A stretch of DNA of 64,000 bases from Thermosynechococcaceae cyanobacterium Okahandja (GTDB lineage: Bacteria > Cyanobacteriota > Cyanobacteriia > Thermosynechococcales > Thermosynechococcaceae). The notes beneath the pieces were generated by a model. The model was not told the origin of the DNA and ran no database searches. It worked only from the letters and a program-made list of their open reading frames with translations. The stretch lies in contig CP136945.1 of assembly GCA_041530395.1 (NCBI GenBank), forward strand, positions 434,001 through 498,000. Reading direction: 5' to 3'. Positions 5,894 to 56,873 of the stretch are shown here, one piece after another. How positions within the stretch are numbered: position 1 is the stretch's first letter; each line of letters begins with the position of its first letter. The position numbers and the translations under genes are program-made.

Positions 5894-6649
5894 ATGATCA
5901 TCAAGTCAACAGCGACGGTACCACGACGGTGGCTCCAAGATTGCTTGCGGGCCGGTCGCCACGAGTGGAATCTATGGCGGCAGTCCTATCCTCAGCTTAG
6001 CGTTGATCTGAGTGAAGTGAATCTGAGCGGGTTGGATTTGCGCGGCTATGACTTGCAGGGCTGCAAATTTAGCCATAGTGTGTTGCGGGGGGTTAACTTG
6101 CGGCAGGCCAGCCTCTGCTATGCCAATTTCTATGGCGCAGACCTCGAGGCCGCCAACCTTGAGGAGGCCAATTGTACGGGGGCGTTGTTTTACCGTGCGG
6201 TGGCCAACGGTAGCACCTGCCAGCGGGCCACCCTGCGGCTCGCCAATCTGCAGCAGGCACAGTTTGAGCAGGCCGACCTTACTTGGGCCACTCTTGAGCA
6301 AGCGGATGGACGGGAGGCCAATTTTCGGGCAGCGGATCTTAGCTTTGTGCAAGCTACCGCAGCAAATTTAAGCGGCGGGGGACTGGTGGCCGCTAGCCTC
6401 AATGAAGCCACGTTGCGGTTTGCCCAACTCTGCCATGGTTCCCTTGAAGAGGTGCACGCCTACCGCTGCAATTTTCAGGGGGCTAACCTTGCCTACGCGG
6501 GACTAACCCGCGGCTACTTTGCCAGAGCCTTATTTGTGAATGCCAACCTGAGCTACGCGGTGTGTTGCTGGGCCAACTTTCGCCATGCGAACCTGCAGGA
6601 CAGTTGCTGCCACCAGACAAATTTTCGGCACAGTGTTTATGTTGCTTAA
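5894..6649 (+). CDS. Pentapeptide-repeat protein
   Basis: After about 40 N-terminal residues, this 251-residue protein consists almost wholly of A(D/N)LxX pentapeptides such as ANFYGADLEAANLEEANC and ends in ANLQDSCCHQTNF. These repeats form a right-handed quadrilateral beta-helix. Cyanobacteria encode many such proteins, mostly of unknown function. There is no signal peptide. The start at 5894 is preceded by GGAGGGATGG, a good ribosome-binding site. The cysteine content of the repeat faces is fairly high. Confidence 0.88.
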   Translation: MIIKSTATVPRRWLQDCLRAGRHEWNLWRQSYPQLSVDLSEVNLSGLDLRGYDLQGCKFSHSVLRGVNLRQASLCYANFYGADLEAANLEEANCTGALFYRAVANGSTCQRATLRLANLQQAQFEQADLTWATLEQADGREANFRAADLSFVQATAANLSGGGLVAASLNEATLRFAQLCHGSLEEVHAYRCNFQGANLAYAGLTRGYFARALFVNANLSYAVCCWANFRHANLQDSCCHQTNFRHSVYVA

Positions 6650-6666
6650 TCTTATTTTTAGATTGC

Positions 6667-6864
6667 CTAGCCGTGGCTGGCTTCCATCCATTCGAAAATG
6701 CGATCTAATTGCTCAAGGCTGACAAGGCCGTACTGCCACAGCACCACGGGCAACAGGTTGACTTGCTCTTCACAGTGTTTTAGGCCAAAGTTAATCGCGG
6801 CGGTGGGCAGTGCCATCTCCCGCTGCAGAAAGTCAATAAGCCGTGTCCAACGTGGTGTCTTCAT
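6667..6864 (-). CDS. Small DUF2949-type protein
   Basis: This small protein of about 65 residues begins MKTPRWTRLIDFLQREMALP and ends VSLEQLDRIFEWMEAS. It resembles the cyanobacterial DUF2949 family of short helical proteins. The frame stays open upstream to 6924, but the conserved part begins at the internal ATG at 6864, which I take as the start. Function is unknown. It lies tail-to-tail with the pentapeptide-repeat gene with a 17-base gap. Family recall is moderate. Confidence 0.6.
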   Translation of the reverse strand: MKTPRWTRLIDFLQREMALPTAAINFGLKHCEEQVNLLPVVLWQYGLVSLEQLDRIFEWMEASHG

Positions 6865-18152: not shown

Positions 18153-19018
18153 ATGCTAAGAGCCGTCAACAAGGTCAAAACCTACCCTACAGTTGAACAA
18201 CAATGGTATCTAGCTCAGACCTTTGGCTGTGTGCAGTGGGTCTGGAATCAGTCTCTCTCAACGTCCAAAATGCCCGATGGTCGGTATGATGCTGCTCTGC
18301 TGATTGAAGATAAAGCGGAAACGCCTGCATCTAGCAGTAATGGGAAGGCGGTTGGCATTGACCTTGGGTTGATTGATTTTGCTGTCACTTCCGATGGCTC
18401 TAAATATCGTCACCCCAAACCTCTTGCCAAACATGAGCGCAACTTGAAGGGGAAGCAGCTATCTCGGAAAAAGGATAAAATCACGGGCAAATATCGTAAG
18501 GCTAAAAGACTCGTTGCCAGAGTGCATTCTAAGATTTCACGCCTTCGAGAGGATTTTCTGCACCAGCTATCCCGCAAGATAGTGAACGAGAACCAAGTGA
18601 TGGTGGTGGAAAATCTAGCCGTGAACAACATGGTCAAGAACCACCGCCTAGCTAAGTCGATCAGTGATGCTGGTTGGGGGAGGTTTTGCACTATGTTGAA
18701 GTACAAAGCAGAGGCGGAAGGCAAGGTTTACGTGGAAGTAGGGCGTTTCTTCCCTAGCTCTCATCTTTGCGCTGAAACGCTGCTGCCCCTGCCCAAGATG
18801 GCTTTGAGCATCAGGGCATTGGACTGTCCTCATTGTGGACACAGGCATGACCGAGATGTAAATGCCGCCATCAATATCAGAAATGAAGGCTTGCGGATTT
18901 TGGCATTGGAAGTGCTTCTGCCCTTGGAGGCAATGTAAGACCAAAGCGGTATGGGCGCAAGTCCACTACGGCGGCGGCTGTTGCCTGTGAAAAGGGAAGC
19001 CAGCCCCGTACCGCCTAG
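18153..19018 (+). pseudogene. tnpB: Decayed IS605/IS1341-family TnpB (internal deletion and frameshift)
   Basis: An open frame of 261 codons (18153-18938) encodes the TnpB N-terminus (YPTVEQQWYLAQTFGCVQWV) fused near 18265 directly to the later part (PDGRYDAALLIEDKAE), so roughly 140 middle residues are missing. The three RuvC acidic sites remain (GIDLGL, VVENLAV, DRDVNAAI), but the first zinc-finger pair seems incomplete. Restoring one G at the run 18908-18909 lets the frame continue through SALGGNVRPKRYGRKS to a stop at 19018, which resembles normal TnpB tails. This is therefore a frameshifted, internally deleted relic. No tnpA is present. Confidence 0.85.
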
Positions 19019-19376: not shown

Positions 19377-19769
19377 ATGAGCGATGCTGCTACTCAATCA
19401 GAACTCGGGCAAGTGCTGGATGCGATCAAGTCCATTCAGTCCGATATAAAAGCCATGCAGTCTGATATTCAGGCCATGGACAAGAAGCTAGACCTTCACA
19501 TTGCCACGACGGCAGAAAAGTTCAACACGCTGGAGGAAAGGTTATCCGGTGAAATCAAGGCGGTACGGACTGAAATTCAGTTGGTACGGGCTGAAGTCAA
19601 AGCCTTGGATGATAAAGTGACCGTTCAAATCAAAGCCTTAGATGATAAGGTGACTGACTTGCGCGATCGCCAAAAAGTGACGGATTCCCGCCTGTGGGCG
19701 TTCATTGTGGCACTGGTGACCCTTGTCGGCGGTAGCGTGATTAAAGTCTTATGGTTTGACCGTGCATAA
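19377..19769 (+). CDS. Tail-anchored coiled-coil protein, tandem copy 1
   Basis: The 130-residue product starts MSDAATQSELGQVLDAIKSI, then forms a long coiled coil (residues about 15-100) with repeating KALDDKVT and SDIKAMQ units. It ends with a single membrane helix FIVALVTLVGGSVIKVLWF and a DRA tail, so the bulk should face the cytoplasm and the C-terminus should sit in a membrane. The start has GGAGGG 7 bases upstream. Relative to copy 2 it carries 7 extra residues early and 18 later. The overall plan resembles phage XhlA-like or Bdr-like small proteins, but I assign no function. Confidence 0.8.
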   Translation: MSDAATQSELGQVLDAIKSIQSDIKAMQSDIQAMDKKLDLHIATTAEKFNTLEERLSGEIKAVRTEIQLVRAEVKALDDKVTVQIKALDDKVTDLRDRQKVTDSRLWAFIVALVTLVGGSVIKVLWFDRA

Positions 19770-19819
19770 ACCACAGTAAACCAGTAGGGATTCAAAAGAC
19801 ACCGTTGGAGGGTTAACCC

Positions 19820-20137
19820 ATGAGTGATGCTGCCACTCAATCAGAACTCGGGCAAGTACTGGATGCGATCAAGTCCATGCAGTCTGATATTCAGGCCATG
19901 GACAAGAAGCTAGACCTTCACATTGCCACTACGGCGGAAAAGTTCAATACTCTAGAAGAGCGTCTATCCGGTGAAATCAAGGCGGTACGGGCTGAAATCA
20001 AAGCCTTAGATGATAAGGTGACTGACTTGCGCGATCGCCAAAAAGTGACGGATTCCCGCCTGTGGGCGTTCATTGTGGCACTGGTGACCCTTGTCGGCGG
20101 TAGCGTGATTAAAGTCTTATGGTTTGACCGTGCATAA
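19820..20137 (+). CDS. Tail-anchored coiled-coil protein, tandem copy 2
   Basis: The 105-residue copy is the shortest form together with copy 3: N-terminal QSELGQVLDAIKSMQSDIQA, a single KAVRAEIKALDDKVTDL linker, RDRQKVTDSR, then the membrane helix. It follows copy 1 after a 50-base spacer that contains the same GGAGGG ribosome-binding site. Its protein is identical to copy 3 and the DNA differs at only a few bases, so the 2/3 duplication is recent or the copies are being homogenised. Confidence 0.8.
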   Translation: MSDAATQSELGQVLDAIKSMQSDIQAMDKKLDLHIATTAEKFNTLEERLSGEIKAVRAEIKALDDKVTDLRDRQKVTDSRLWAFIVALVTLVGGSVIKVLWFDRA

Positions 20138-20187
20138 ACCACAGTAAACCAGTAGGGATTCAAAAGACACCGTTGGAGGGTTAACCC

Positions 20188-20505
20188 ATGAGTGATGCTG
20201 CCACTCAATCAGAACTCGGGCAAGTACTGGATGCGATCAAGTCCATGCAGTCTGATATTCAGGCCATGGACAAGAAGCTAGACCTTCACATTGCCACTAC
20301 GGCGGAAAAGTTCAATACTCTAGAAGAGCGTCTATCCGGTGAAATCAAGGCGGTACGGGCTGAAATCAAAGCCTTAGATGATAAGGTGACTGACTTGCGC
20401 GATCGCCAAAAAGTGACGGATTCCCGTCTGTGGGCGTTCATTGTGGCACTGGTGACCCTTGTCGGCGGTAGCGTAATTAAAGTCTTGTGGTTTGACCGTG
20501 CATAA
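20188..20505 (+). CDS. Tail-anchored coiled-coil protein, tandem copy 3
   Basis: The product is identical in amino-acid sequence to copy 2 (105 residues), with a few silent changes such as GCC to GTC-type shifts near the RDRQ and GGSV codons. The start-to-start distance from copy 2 is 368 bases, which includes the 50-base spacer. Selection on the protein is suggested by the changes being silent. Function is unknown. Confidence 0.8.
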   Translation: MSDAATQSELGQVLDAIKSMQSDIQAMDKKLDLHIATTAEKFNTLEERLSGEIKAVRAEIKALDDKVTDLRDRQKVTDSRLWAFIVALVTLVGGSVIKVLWFDRA

Positions 20506-20555
20506 ACCACAGTAAATCAGTAGGGATTCAAAAAACACCGTTGGAGGGTTAACCC

Positions 20556-20960
20556 ATGAGTGATGCTGCCACTCAATCAGAATTAGGGCAAGTGCTGGAT
20601 GCGATCAAGTCCATGCAGTCTGATATTCAGGCCATGGACAAGAAGCTAGACCTTCACATTGCCACTACAGCAGAAAAGTTCAACACGCTGGAGGAAAGGT
20701 TATCCGGTGAAATCAAGGCGGTACGGGCTGAAGTCAAAGCCTTAGATGATAAAGTGACCGTTCAAATCAACGCAGTGCAAACCGAAGTCAAGGCCTTAGA
20801 CAATAAGGTAACTGTTCAAATCAAAGCCTTGGACGATAAGGTGACTGACTTGCGCGATCGCCAAAAGGTGACAGATTCCCGTCTGTGGGCGTTCATTGTG
20901 GCACTGGTGACCCTTGTCGGCGGTAGCGTGATTAAAGTCTTGTGGTTTGACCGTGCATAA
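20556..20960 (+). CDS. Tail-anchored coiled-coil protein, tandem copy 4 (longest)
   Basis: At 134 residues this is the longest copy. Against copy 2 it has 29 extra residues in the middle of the coiled coil, built from repeats of the KALDDKVTVQI type (VQINAVQTEVKALDNKVTVQ). That is 87 bases, exactly the difference in start-to-start spacing. The ends, including the membrane helix and the HIP1-containing RDRQ codons, match the other copies. Confidence 0.8.
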   Translation: MSDAATQSELGQVLDAIKSMQSDIQAMDKKLDLHIATTAEKFNTLEERLSGEIKAVRAEVKALDDKVTVQINAVQTEVKALDNKVTVQIKALDDKVTDLRDRQKVTDSRLWAFIVALVTLVGGSVIKVLWFDRA

Positions 20961-21010
20961 ACCACAGTAAATCAGTAGGGATTCAGAAGGCACCGTTGGA
21001 GGGTTAACCC

Positions 21011-21361
21011 ATGAGTGATGCTGCCACTCAATCAGAACTCGGGCAAGTGCTGAATGCGATCAAGTCCATGCAGTCCGATATAAAAGCCATGCAGTCTGAT
21101 ATTCAGGCCATGGACAAGAAGCTAGACATCCACATCGCTACTACGGCGGAAAAGTTCAACACGCTAGAGGAAAGGCTATCCGGTGAAATCAAGGCTGTAG
21201 ATGCAAAACTCAGCAGCCAGATCAAAGCCCTAGACGACAAGGTGACTGACTTGCGCGATCGCCAAAAGGTGACGGATTCCCGTCTGTGGGCGTTCATTGT
21301 GGCACTGGTAACCCTTGTCGGCGGTAGCGTAATTAAGGTGCTCTGGTTTGACCGTGCATAA
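21011..21361 (+). CDS. Tail-anchored coiled-coil protein, tandem copy 5
   Basis: The 116-residue last copy has the 7-residue early insertion (SDIKAMQ) as in copy 1, and a distinct linker KAVDAKLSSQIKALDDK that is 4 residues longer than copy 2. It also has LDIHIATT instead of LDLHIATT. The array stops here: the next gene (minus strand, FAD oxidase) ends 29 bases later, and the 50-base spacer is not present after this copy. Confidence 0.8.
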   Translation: MSDAATQSELGQVLNAIKSMQSDIKAMQSDIQAMDKKLDIHIATTAEKFNTLEERLSGEIKAVDAKLSSQIKALDDKVTDLRDRQKVTDSRLWAFIVALVTLVGGSVIKVLWFDRA

Positions 21362-56616: not shown

Positions 56617-56642
56617 TATCTTAGTATCTGAACTAGTAAGAG

Positions 56643-56873
56643 TTGGGAGTCAGAGAACATCATTGTCGGGAGTGTGGGTATCGGACACATCGGGATCATG
56701 CCGCCGCAGAGATGGTGTTGCATCGTGGACGAGAAAATGTAGTAGCCCAGGGACTCTGGGGAAGGGAAACCGCCTGTCAAGTCGGTCTGTCGGGGGTCGT
56801 TGACCTAGACAAGTGGCGTGGGGCAGGAATGCCCAACCGTGAGGTTGGGAAGCCCGTGCTGTACCAGTAGGGT
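56643..56873 (+). pseudogene. tnpB: TnpB C-terminal relic with right-end hairpin
   Basis: A frame of about 75 codons encodes HHCRECGYRTHRDHAAAEMV, the second half of a TnpB zinc finger with the last RuvC Asp, followed by a tail ending GMPNREVGKPVLYQ. The rest of TnpB is absent. The tail is encoded by DNA with the hairpin CCCAACC-gtga-GGTTGGG and AAGCCC, matching the guide-RNA end of IS605-group elements. It is a 5'-truncated remnant with no promoter. Confidence 0.78.

Follow-up and report, generated by a model that had tools for sequence, protein, structure and literature searches.

Five adjacent genes for predicted tail-anchored coiled coils belong to a dispersed family in a Thermosynechococcaceae cyanobacterium

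Introduction

Bacteria commonly encode small tail-anchored coiled coils, most of them annotated as hypothetical. At the locus described here five of them lie side by side, which raises two questions: why would a chromosome carry so many copies of one small protein, and do their different lengths matter? The window is a stretch of 64,000 nucleotides from the heat-loving Thermosynechococcaceae cyanobacterium Okahandja (contig CP136945.1, positions 434,001 to 498,000, forward strand). An earlier note on this DNA had placed five same-strand genes for one protein type at positions 19377-21361, which proved right to the base (Table 1), and had suggested that either dosage or length diversity is selected.

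Table 1. Genes and spacers of the array, in positions of the window.
Feature	Position	Strand	Description
Copy 1	19377..19769	+	130 aa tail-anchored coiled coil (predicted); ORF and C-terminal model match
Copy 2	19820..20137	+	105 aa; ORF; protein identical to copy 3
Copy 3	20188..20505	+	105 aa; ORF
Copy 4	20556..20960	+	134 aa, longest stalk in the array; ORF
Copy 5	21011..21361	+	116 aa; ORF; AlphaFold2 model a single helix
Spacer 1	19770..19819	+	50 nt, GGAGGG; identical to spacer 2
Spacer 2	20138..20187	+	50 nt, GGAGGG; identical to spacer 1
Spacer 3	20506..20555	+	50 nt, GGAGGG; 2 differences from spacer 1
Spacer 4	20961..21010	+	50 nt, GGAGGG; 3 differences from spacer 1

Organization of the Array

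The near-identical spacers reported in the earlier note are present between all five genes; they are of one length, differ pairwise at 0 to 3 positions and share the ribosome-binding-like GGAGGG. Repeat analysis gives tandem unit spacings of 368, 368, 455, and 401 nt. Copies 2 and 3 do encode identical proteins, their genes being separated by 3 synonymous differences only. A site scan found no terminator-like site on the + strand within the spacers, an arrangement that would be compatible with a single transcript. The scans were otherwise not informative, with two promoter sites (2.3 expected), both within genes, and five sites resembling terminators against 2.4 expected, every one of them on the minus strand. 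Between 19770 and 21010 the spacers differ at no more than 3 of 50 positions, though the genes themselves are up to 0.48 apart in synonymous distance; either exchange tracts or a constrained leader may account for this. The three window neighbors examined encode a DUF3611 protein, an IS605 OrfB and an FAD oxidoreductase.

Domain Layout of the Proteins

Read from sequence, the family layout consists of a conserved N-terminal segment, a neck, a stalk and a nearly invariant C-terminal anchor. The neck is one of two interchangeable types, and the stalk is made of 7- and 11-residue units. Each window copy has a single strongly hydrophobic window of 19 residues (Kyte-Doolittle 2.19), which ends 3 residues before the C-terminus, and the next-best window elsewhere scores at most 0.34. 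The anchor motif R/T-L-W is found in 55 of the 55 ORFs examined. AlphaFold2, run on copy 5 with a five-sequence alignment, gives a continuous helix over residues 2-115; this is a monomer model, silent on oligomer and topology. ORFs, hydropathy and the modeled helix thus agree with the conserved N-terminus, variable coil and single C-terminal membrane helix that had been proposed. Copy 4 is 29 residues longer than copy 2, and the residues that they have in common are identical.

The window necks read I-A-T-T-A-E, one residue off the β-layer consensus [aliphatic]-A-T-K-[polar]-[DE] (T, not K, at the fourth position) as it stands in the part of the source available, according to which β-layers form in trimers (PMC4786415). 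The monomer model of copy 5 is an unbroken helix.

A Dispersed Multigene Family

The window array belongs to a dispersed multigene family. A protein search of its own chromosome (2,817,282 bases, one contig) returned 27 matches, and the gene-level count is 15 intact copies and 2 wrecks. Besides the five window genes, the intact copies comprise a second array of seven (array B; minus strand, 1704-1707 kb, with 64-nt spacers) and three single genes near 2305, 2653, and 2797 kb. The wreck near 1006 kb is a family copy interrupted by stop codons and by a break in its frame. The other, near 394 kb (L014:4677-6099), is a fragment without the N-terminus, in antisense overlap with a truncated GmrSD-like gene that has itself lost most of its N-terminal domain; this overlap is a recombination scar. 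The neighbors of the family loci vary from place to place and, for the intact copies, are mostly ordinary genes. The co-occurring neighbors to which the earlier note had looked for clues are not conserved, and across the family loci compared none hints at a partner.

Relatives and Copy Number at Shared Sites

A ten-row alignment found matches in 28 of 388 cyanobacterial genomes (E up to 1e-6), and a one-protein search found them in 21 of 58 genomes (E up to 0.001), the own genome being included in both counts. With the alignment all 11 Thermosynechococcus genomes searched gave a match, and all of them carry the family or its remains. For a count of copies per genome, as had been proposed, 40 regions from eleven other genomes were scanned for ORFs with a C-terminus model. 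An ORF was scored as intact if it starts with M or V and has at least 85 residues, a rule that six further ORFs fail. In the fetched regions the number of intact ORFs runs from 15 in the own genome to none, with 11 in G012, 8 in G008, 7 in G001, 6 in G005, 3 each in G003 and G007, and 1 each in G002 and G010 (shortened in the latter), 55 in all genomes together. The fetched regions of G004 hold a decayed remnant only. The sole fetched family gene of G006 (L059, about 6100-6780) has a frame change within a 33-nt repeat tract, which could be decay, phase variation or sequence error. Given the remnant in G004 and the broken copy in G006, the function of the family is dispensable.

Direct flank comparison identified a site orthologous on both sides in G001, G005, G008, and G009, with 1, 3, 3, and 1 copies, respectively, the G009 copy being without an intact start. 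Because copy number differs at one orthologous site, tandem change recurs and is no artefact of assembly. A single-strain assembly artefact, considered in the earlier note, is also rejected on other grounds: the array copies differ synonymously, the genome is one contig, and arrays are present elsewhere, both at further loci and in species other than this one. Likewise, the orthologues are not always single members of a known family, as multi-copy sites exist and the window copies reach no curated cut-off. At a second site both flanks are common to G002 (a remnant) and G008 (2 copies), and one flank is common to G001 (1 copy). A third site, common on the upstream side only, has 3, 1, and 1 copies in G001, G005, and G008. 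In G005 what lies downstream of this third site is the upstream flank of the second site in inverted orientation (L057 right; L049 and L063 upstream), so that the family gene sits at a rearrangement junction; it looks as if two family copies had recombined there. Two more sites have single copies in several species, with both sides conserved where compared.

By flank comparison, none of the own-genome loci is orthologous to a family locus of another genome; the one or two ORFs that two of them have in common with relatives are not synteny. A comparison of five own-genome loci (A to E) with possible empty sites in 20 regions aligned only one flank each time, bar short matches, because gene order is scrambled between this genome and the others. 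Family copies have evidently been gained, lost and shuffled by recombination.

Selection on the Anchor and the Stalk

Codon counts, which were taken from gapped protein alignments and are less certain within repeats, give dN of 0-0.034 and dS of 0.042-0.482 for the ten pairs of window copies, whose aligned residues are 94-100% identical. Copies 2 and 4 have 105 codons in common, with 19 synonymous and 0 nonsynonymous changes (chance about 9e-13 under neutrality), and over the last 40 codons there are 0 nonsynonymous changes in 10 of 10 pairs. This pattern of codon changes shows the anchor to be under strong purifying selection. The stalk is freer than the anchor and tolerant of amino-acid change, with 10 synonymous and 11 nonsynonymous changes within it between copies 1 and 4. 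The 21 pairs of the second array span dN of 0.003-0.166 and dS of 0.111-0.598; most of the high dN values belong to pairs whose necks differ, and copy B1 has five nonsynonymous changes in its tail relative to each of the other copies.

Synonymous distances of 0.04 to 0.48 mean that the window array is not a fresh amplification. Recent amplification for dosage is accordingly rejected for most copies (dS up to 0.48); copies 2 and 3 alone are close. The proposal that dosage or length diversity is selected therefore stands better in its second half: length varies while the anchor is frozen, a pattern for which dosage alone gives no explanation.

Exchange of Modules and Steps in Length

Several copies are patchworks. 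Copies 1 and 2 have seven consecutive silent codon differences (NTLEERL) and then match to the end bar one codon; copy 4 agrees with copy 1 over the NTLEERL stretch and differs from it in the stalk. In gene D (near 2797 kb) approximately the first 100 codons are closest to array A or gene C, and the tail is closest to array B, within which the two necks, MDKKLDIHIATT and LYDLTLEVRTNQATT, alternate. These three patterns point to exchange between copies and also between loci; the copies are mosaics that swap modules.

The shortest member has 94 aa and the longest 228. Gaps were compared in 26 nearest-neighbor pairs of at least 85% identity (pairs share members), drawn from 54 full-length members; 27 of the 30 gaps fit whole coiled-coil turns (11k/3 rounded: 4, 7, 11, 18, 22, 29, 33). 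The share expected under uniform choice is 26.6%, and the exceptions are gaps of 14, 25, and 79. The hydrophobic period, examined in seven members, peaks between 3.55 and 3.67. Whole-turn gaps combined with this period mean that the length steps keep the face of the coiled coil. Phase-keeping steps could arise from slippage of 21- and 33-nt units without selection. Fixed ends joined by a rod whose length changes in set steps suggest, short of proof, that a mix of lengths may be useful to the cell. The family is a clean case of protein evolution by phase-keeping units.

Relation to Known Proteins

None of the window copies reaches a curated cut-off in Pfam or NCBIfam, and a narrow search of the literature found no description of the family, in line with the earlier note, which had not recognized a described system. 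Tail-anchored coiled coils and repeat-length families are known kinds. CCDC90-like/DUF1640 proteins (PF07798; MCUR1-related membrane proteins) likewise have a coil followed by a C-terminal anchor. The gathering score of 33.5 bits lies above the 15.4 bits of copy 4 and the 16.6 bits of copy 5; at E up to 0.01 the model is matched by 20 of 53 members (best 5.4e-8; E-values only for non-window members). By contrast with those proteins, the family here has no separate head domain and the AlphaFold2 model no helix break. Solved structures matched at E up to 0.01 number five and are viral coiled-coil proteins or mimics. These structures, the weak matches and the many matches to coiled-coil models below the cut-off are taken as composition.

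Plasmid records gave 10 matches in 72,556, nine from Synechocystis and one from Stanieria. SGL_RS00975 (pSYSA) and SGL_RS00230 (pSYSM) of Synechocystis PCC 6803, both annotated as hypothetical, share a short N-terminal segment, 11-residue coil units and one C-terminal helix with the proteins of the window. Profile comparison aligns 99 columns, which take in the coil and the anchor region, at 96.1% probability. They differ in the N-terminus and tail, their identity being 40-43% over 75% of copy 5, much of it coil, and the two annotated regions contain no tandem array. On pSYSA the coil-plus-helix gene (L132:5941-6582) follows cas1-cas2, and an XhlA-family gene adjoins it on the other strand. 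This neighbor is probably Ssl7074.

The Bdr proteins of Borrelia offer an analogy by description, as a paralogous family that varies in repeat number. In the part of the source available their function is given as unknown and orthologues differ in repeat number (bdrT, about 9 vs. 6), but the genes lie on plasmids of Borrelia, the phage-like cp32s among them (PMC3303823).

Proposed Function and Alternatives

The explanation that we hold with moderate confidence sees the array as one portion of a dispersed family whose members would act as tail-anchored coiled-coil spacers, length-set rods that would co-assemble into bundles. From the layout, selection, mosaicism and length steps described above, we infer that the window proteins are most likely cytoplasmic spacers of graded length. 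Their anchor would be inserted in either the plasma or the thylakoid membrane, and the rod would extend into the cytoplasm. The copies of one array, presumably made from one transcript, may co-assemble via their near-identical ends into parallel bundles, in which stalk length would set the distance of the conserved tip from the membrane. The N-terminal tip might hold a partner, or the bundle itself might brace or crowd the membrane. Redundant copies would then stay intact because a damaged subunit would poison a co-assembled bundle. A narrower form of this explanation, which we put forward tentatively and consider rather doubtful, is that the proteins are co-assembling membrane rulers: rods with the same foot, nearly the same tip and graded lengths, remodeled by recombination in phase-keeping steps, whose mix sets membrane spacing. 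If so, the spacing could be, for example, the gap separating two membranes or the distance from a membrane to a docked complex. One lineage here provides a natural length series with fixed ends, clear selection and orthologous sites that differ in copy number, which makes coiled-coil length as a tunable bacterial spacer directly testable.

The strongest rival is a near-neutral birth-and-death family with a weak function, a small membrane-tethered helix whose role is modest or redundant and in which recombination between long direct repeats lets copy number and stalk length drift. We regard it as possible though not probable. The range of intact copies in the fetched regions, the wrecks in several genomes and the scatter of loci, with those of the own genome not common to relatives, are what such a family would leave behind, but the ends of every window copy are under strong purifying selection. 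It is unlikely that the proteins form a cytoskeletal scaffold polymerizing under the membrane like other cyanobacterial coiled-coil-rich proteins. Coiled-coil make-up and membrane anchor would suit such a role, and Synechocystis Slr7083 is located at the cell periphery and affects motility. The candidates covered in the available part of that report, likened to the family by description, are however about 280-650 aa long, and Thermosynechococcus elongatus Tlr0420 gave no discernible structures in vitro (PMC7002697).

Phage exclusion or another defense role at the membrane is quite improbable. The surroundings of the pSYSA relative and the family fragment abutting the truncated GmrSD-like gene would fit it, as would a relative of Ssl7074 from a Synechocystis 6714 prophage, which in the part of the source available is co-expressed with a repressor-like gene (PMC4060947). 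The plasmid proteins are distant relatives, though, and intact copies of the own genome mostly have ordinary neighbors. PADLOC gave no strong full-length match to a defense protein model for ten members; its weak matches cover only stretches of long models of coiled coils, the best (9.1e-8, to LeoA) in 2 of the 10. Least probable is an XhlA-like phage holin or hemolysin; the earlier note had raised a holin-like (XhlA) role. All five window copies share with XhlA (PF10779) the order of a short coil and one C-terminal membrane helix, and copy 5 weakly matches PHROG families named hemolysin (8.7e-4). Yet the window copies are longer in the stalk, copy 5 reaches 14.9 bits against a gathering score of 34.7, and XhlA is absent among the best 25 of 180 families matched by a 53-member set. 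Furthermore, no lysis gene is present among the three window neighbors examined, and neither viral contigs (searched by pattern) nor 50,697 phage records (tblastn) gave a relative of the family. P0002 and P0003, two of the plasmid proteins from Synechocystis, likewise yielded none, so that no phage setting was found. A remote link to XhlA may nevertheless exist, as the small gene beside SGL_RS00975 passes the XhlA cut-off.

IS605-Type Genes Near Family Loci

An IS605 OrfB/TnpB-type gene (window 18153-18938; OrfB_IS605, 90.8 bits) ends approximately 440 nt upstream of the array. That the family is a mobile passenger of this gene was considered, found to be weak and rejected: TnpB-like genes lie at 4 of 46 fetched family loci outside the window (one of them weak, at 25% identity) and in the window itself, vs. 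0 of 20 control loci, the controls being flank regions of related genomes that cover 197 kb against 572 kb for the family loci. A second TnpB-like stretch is present in the window at 56640-56849.
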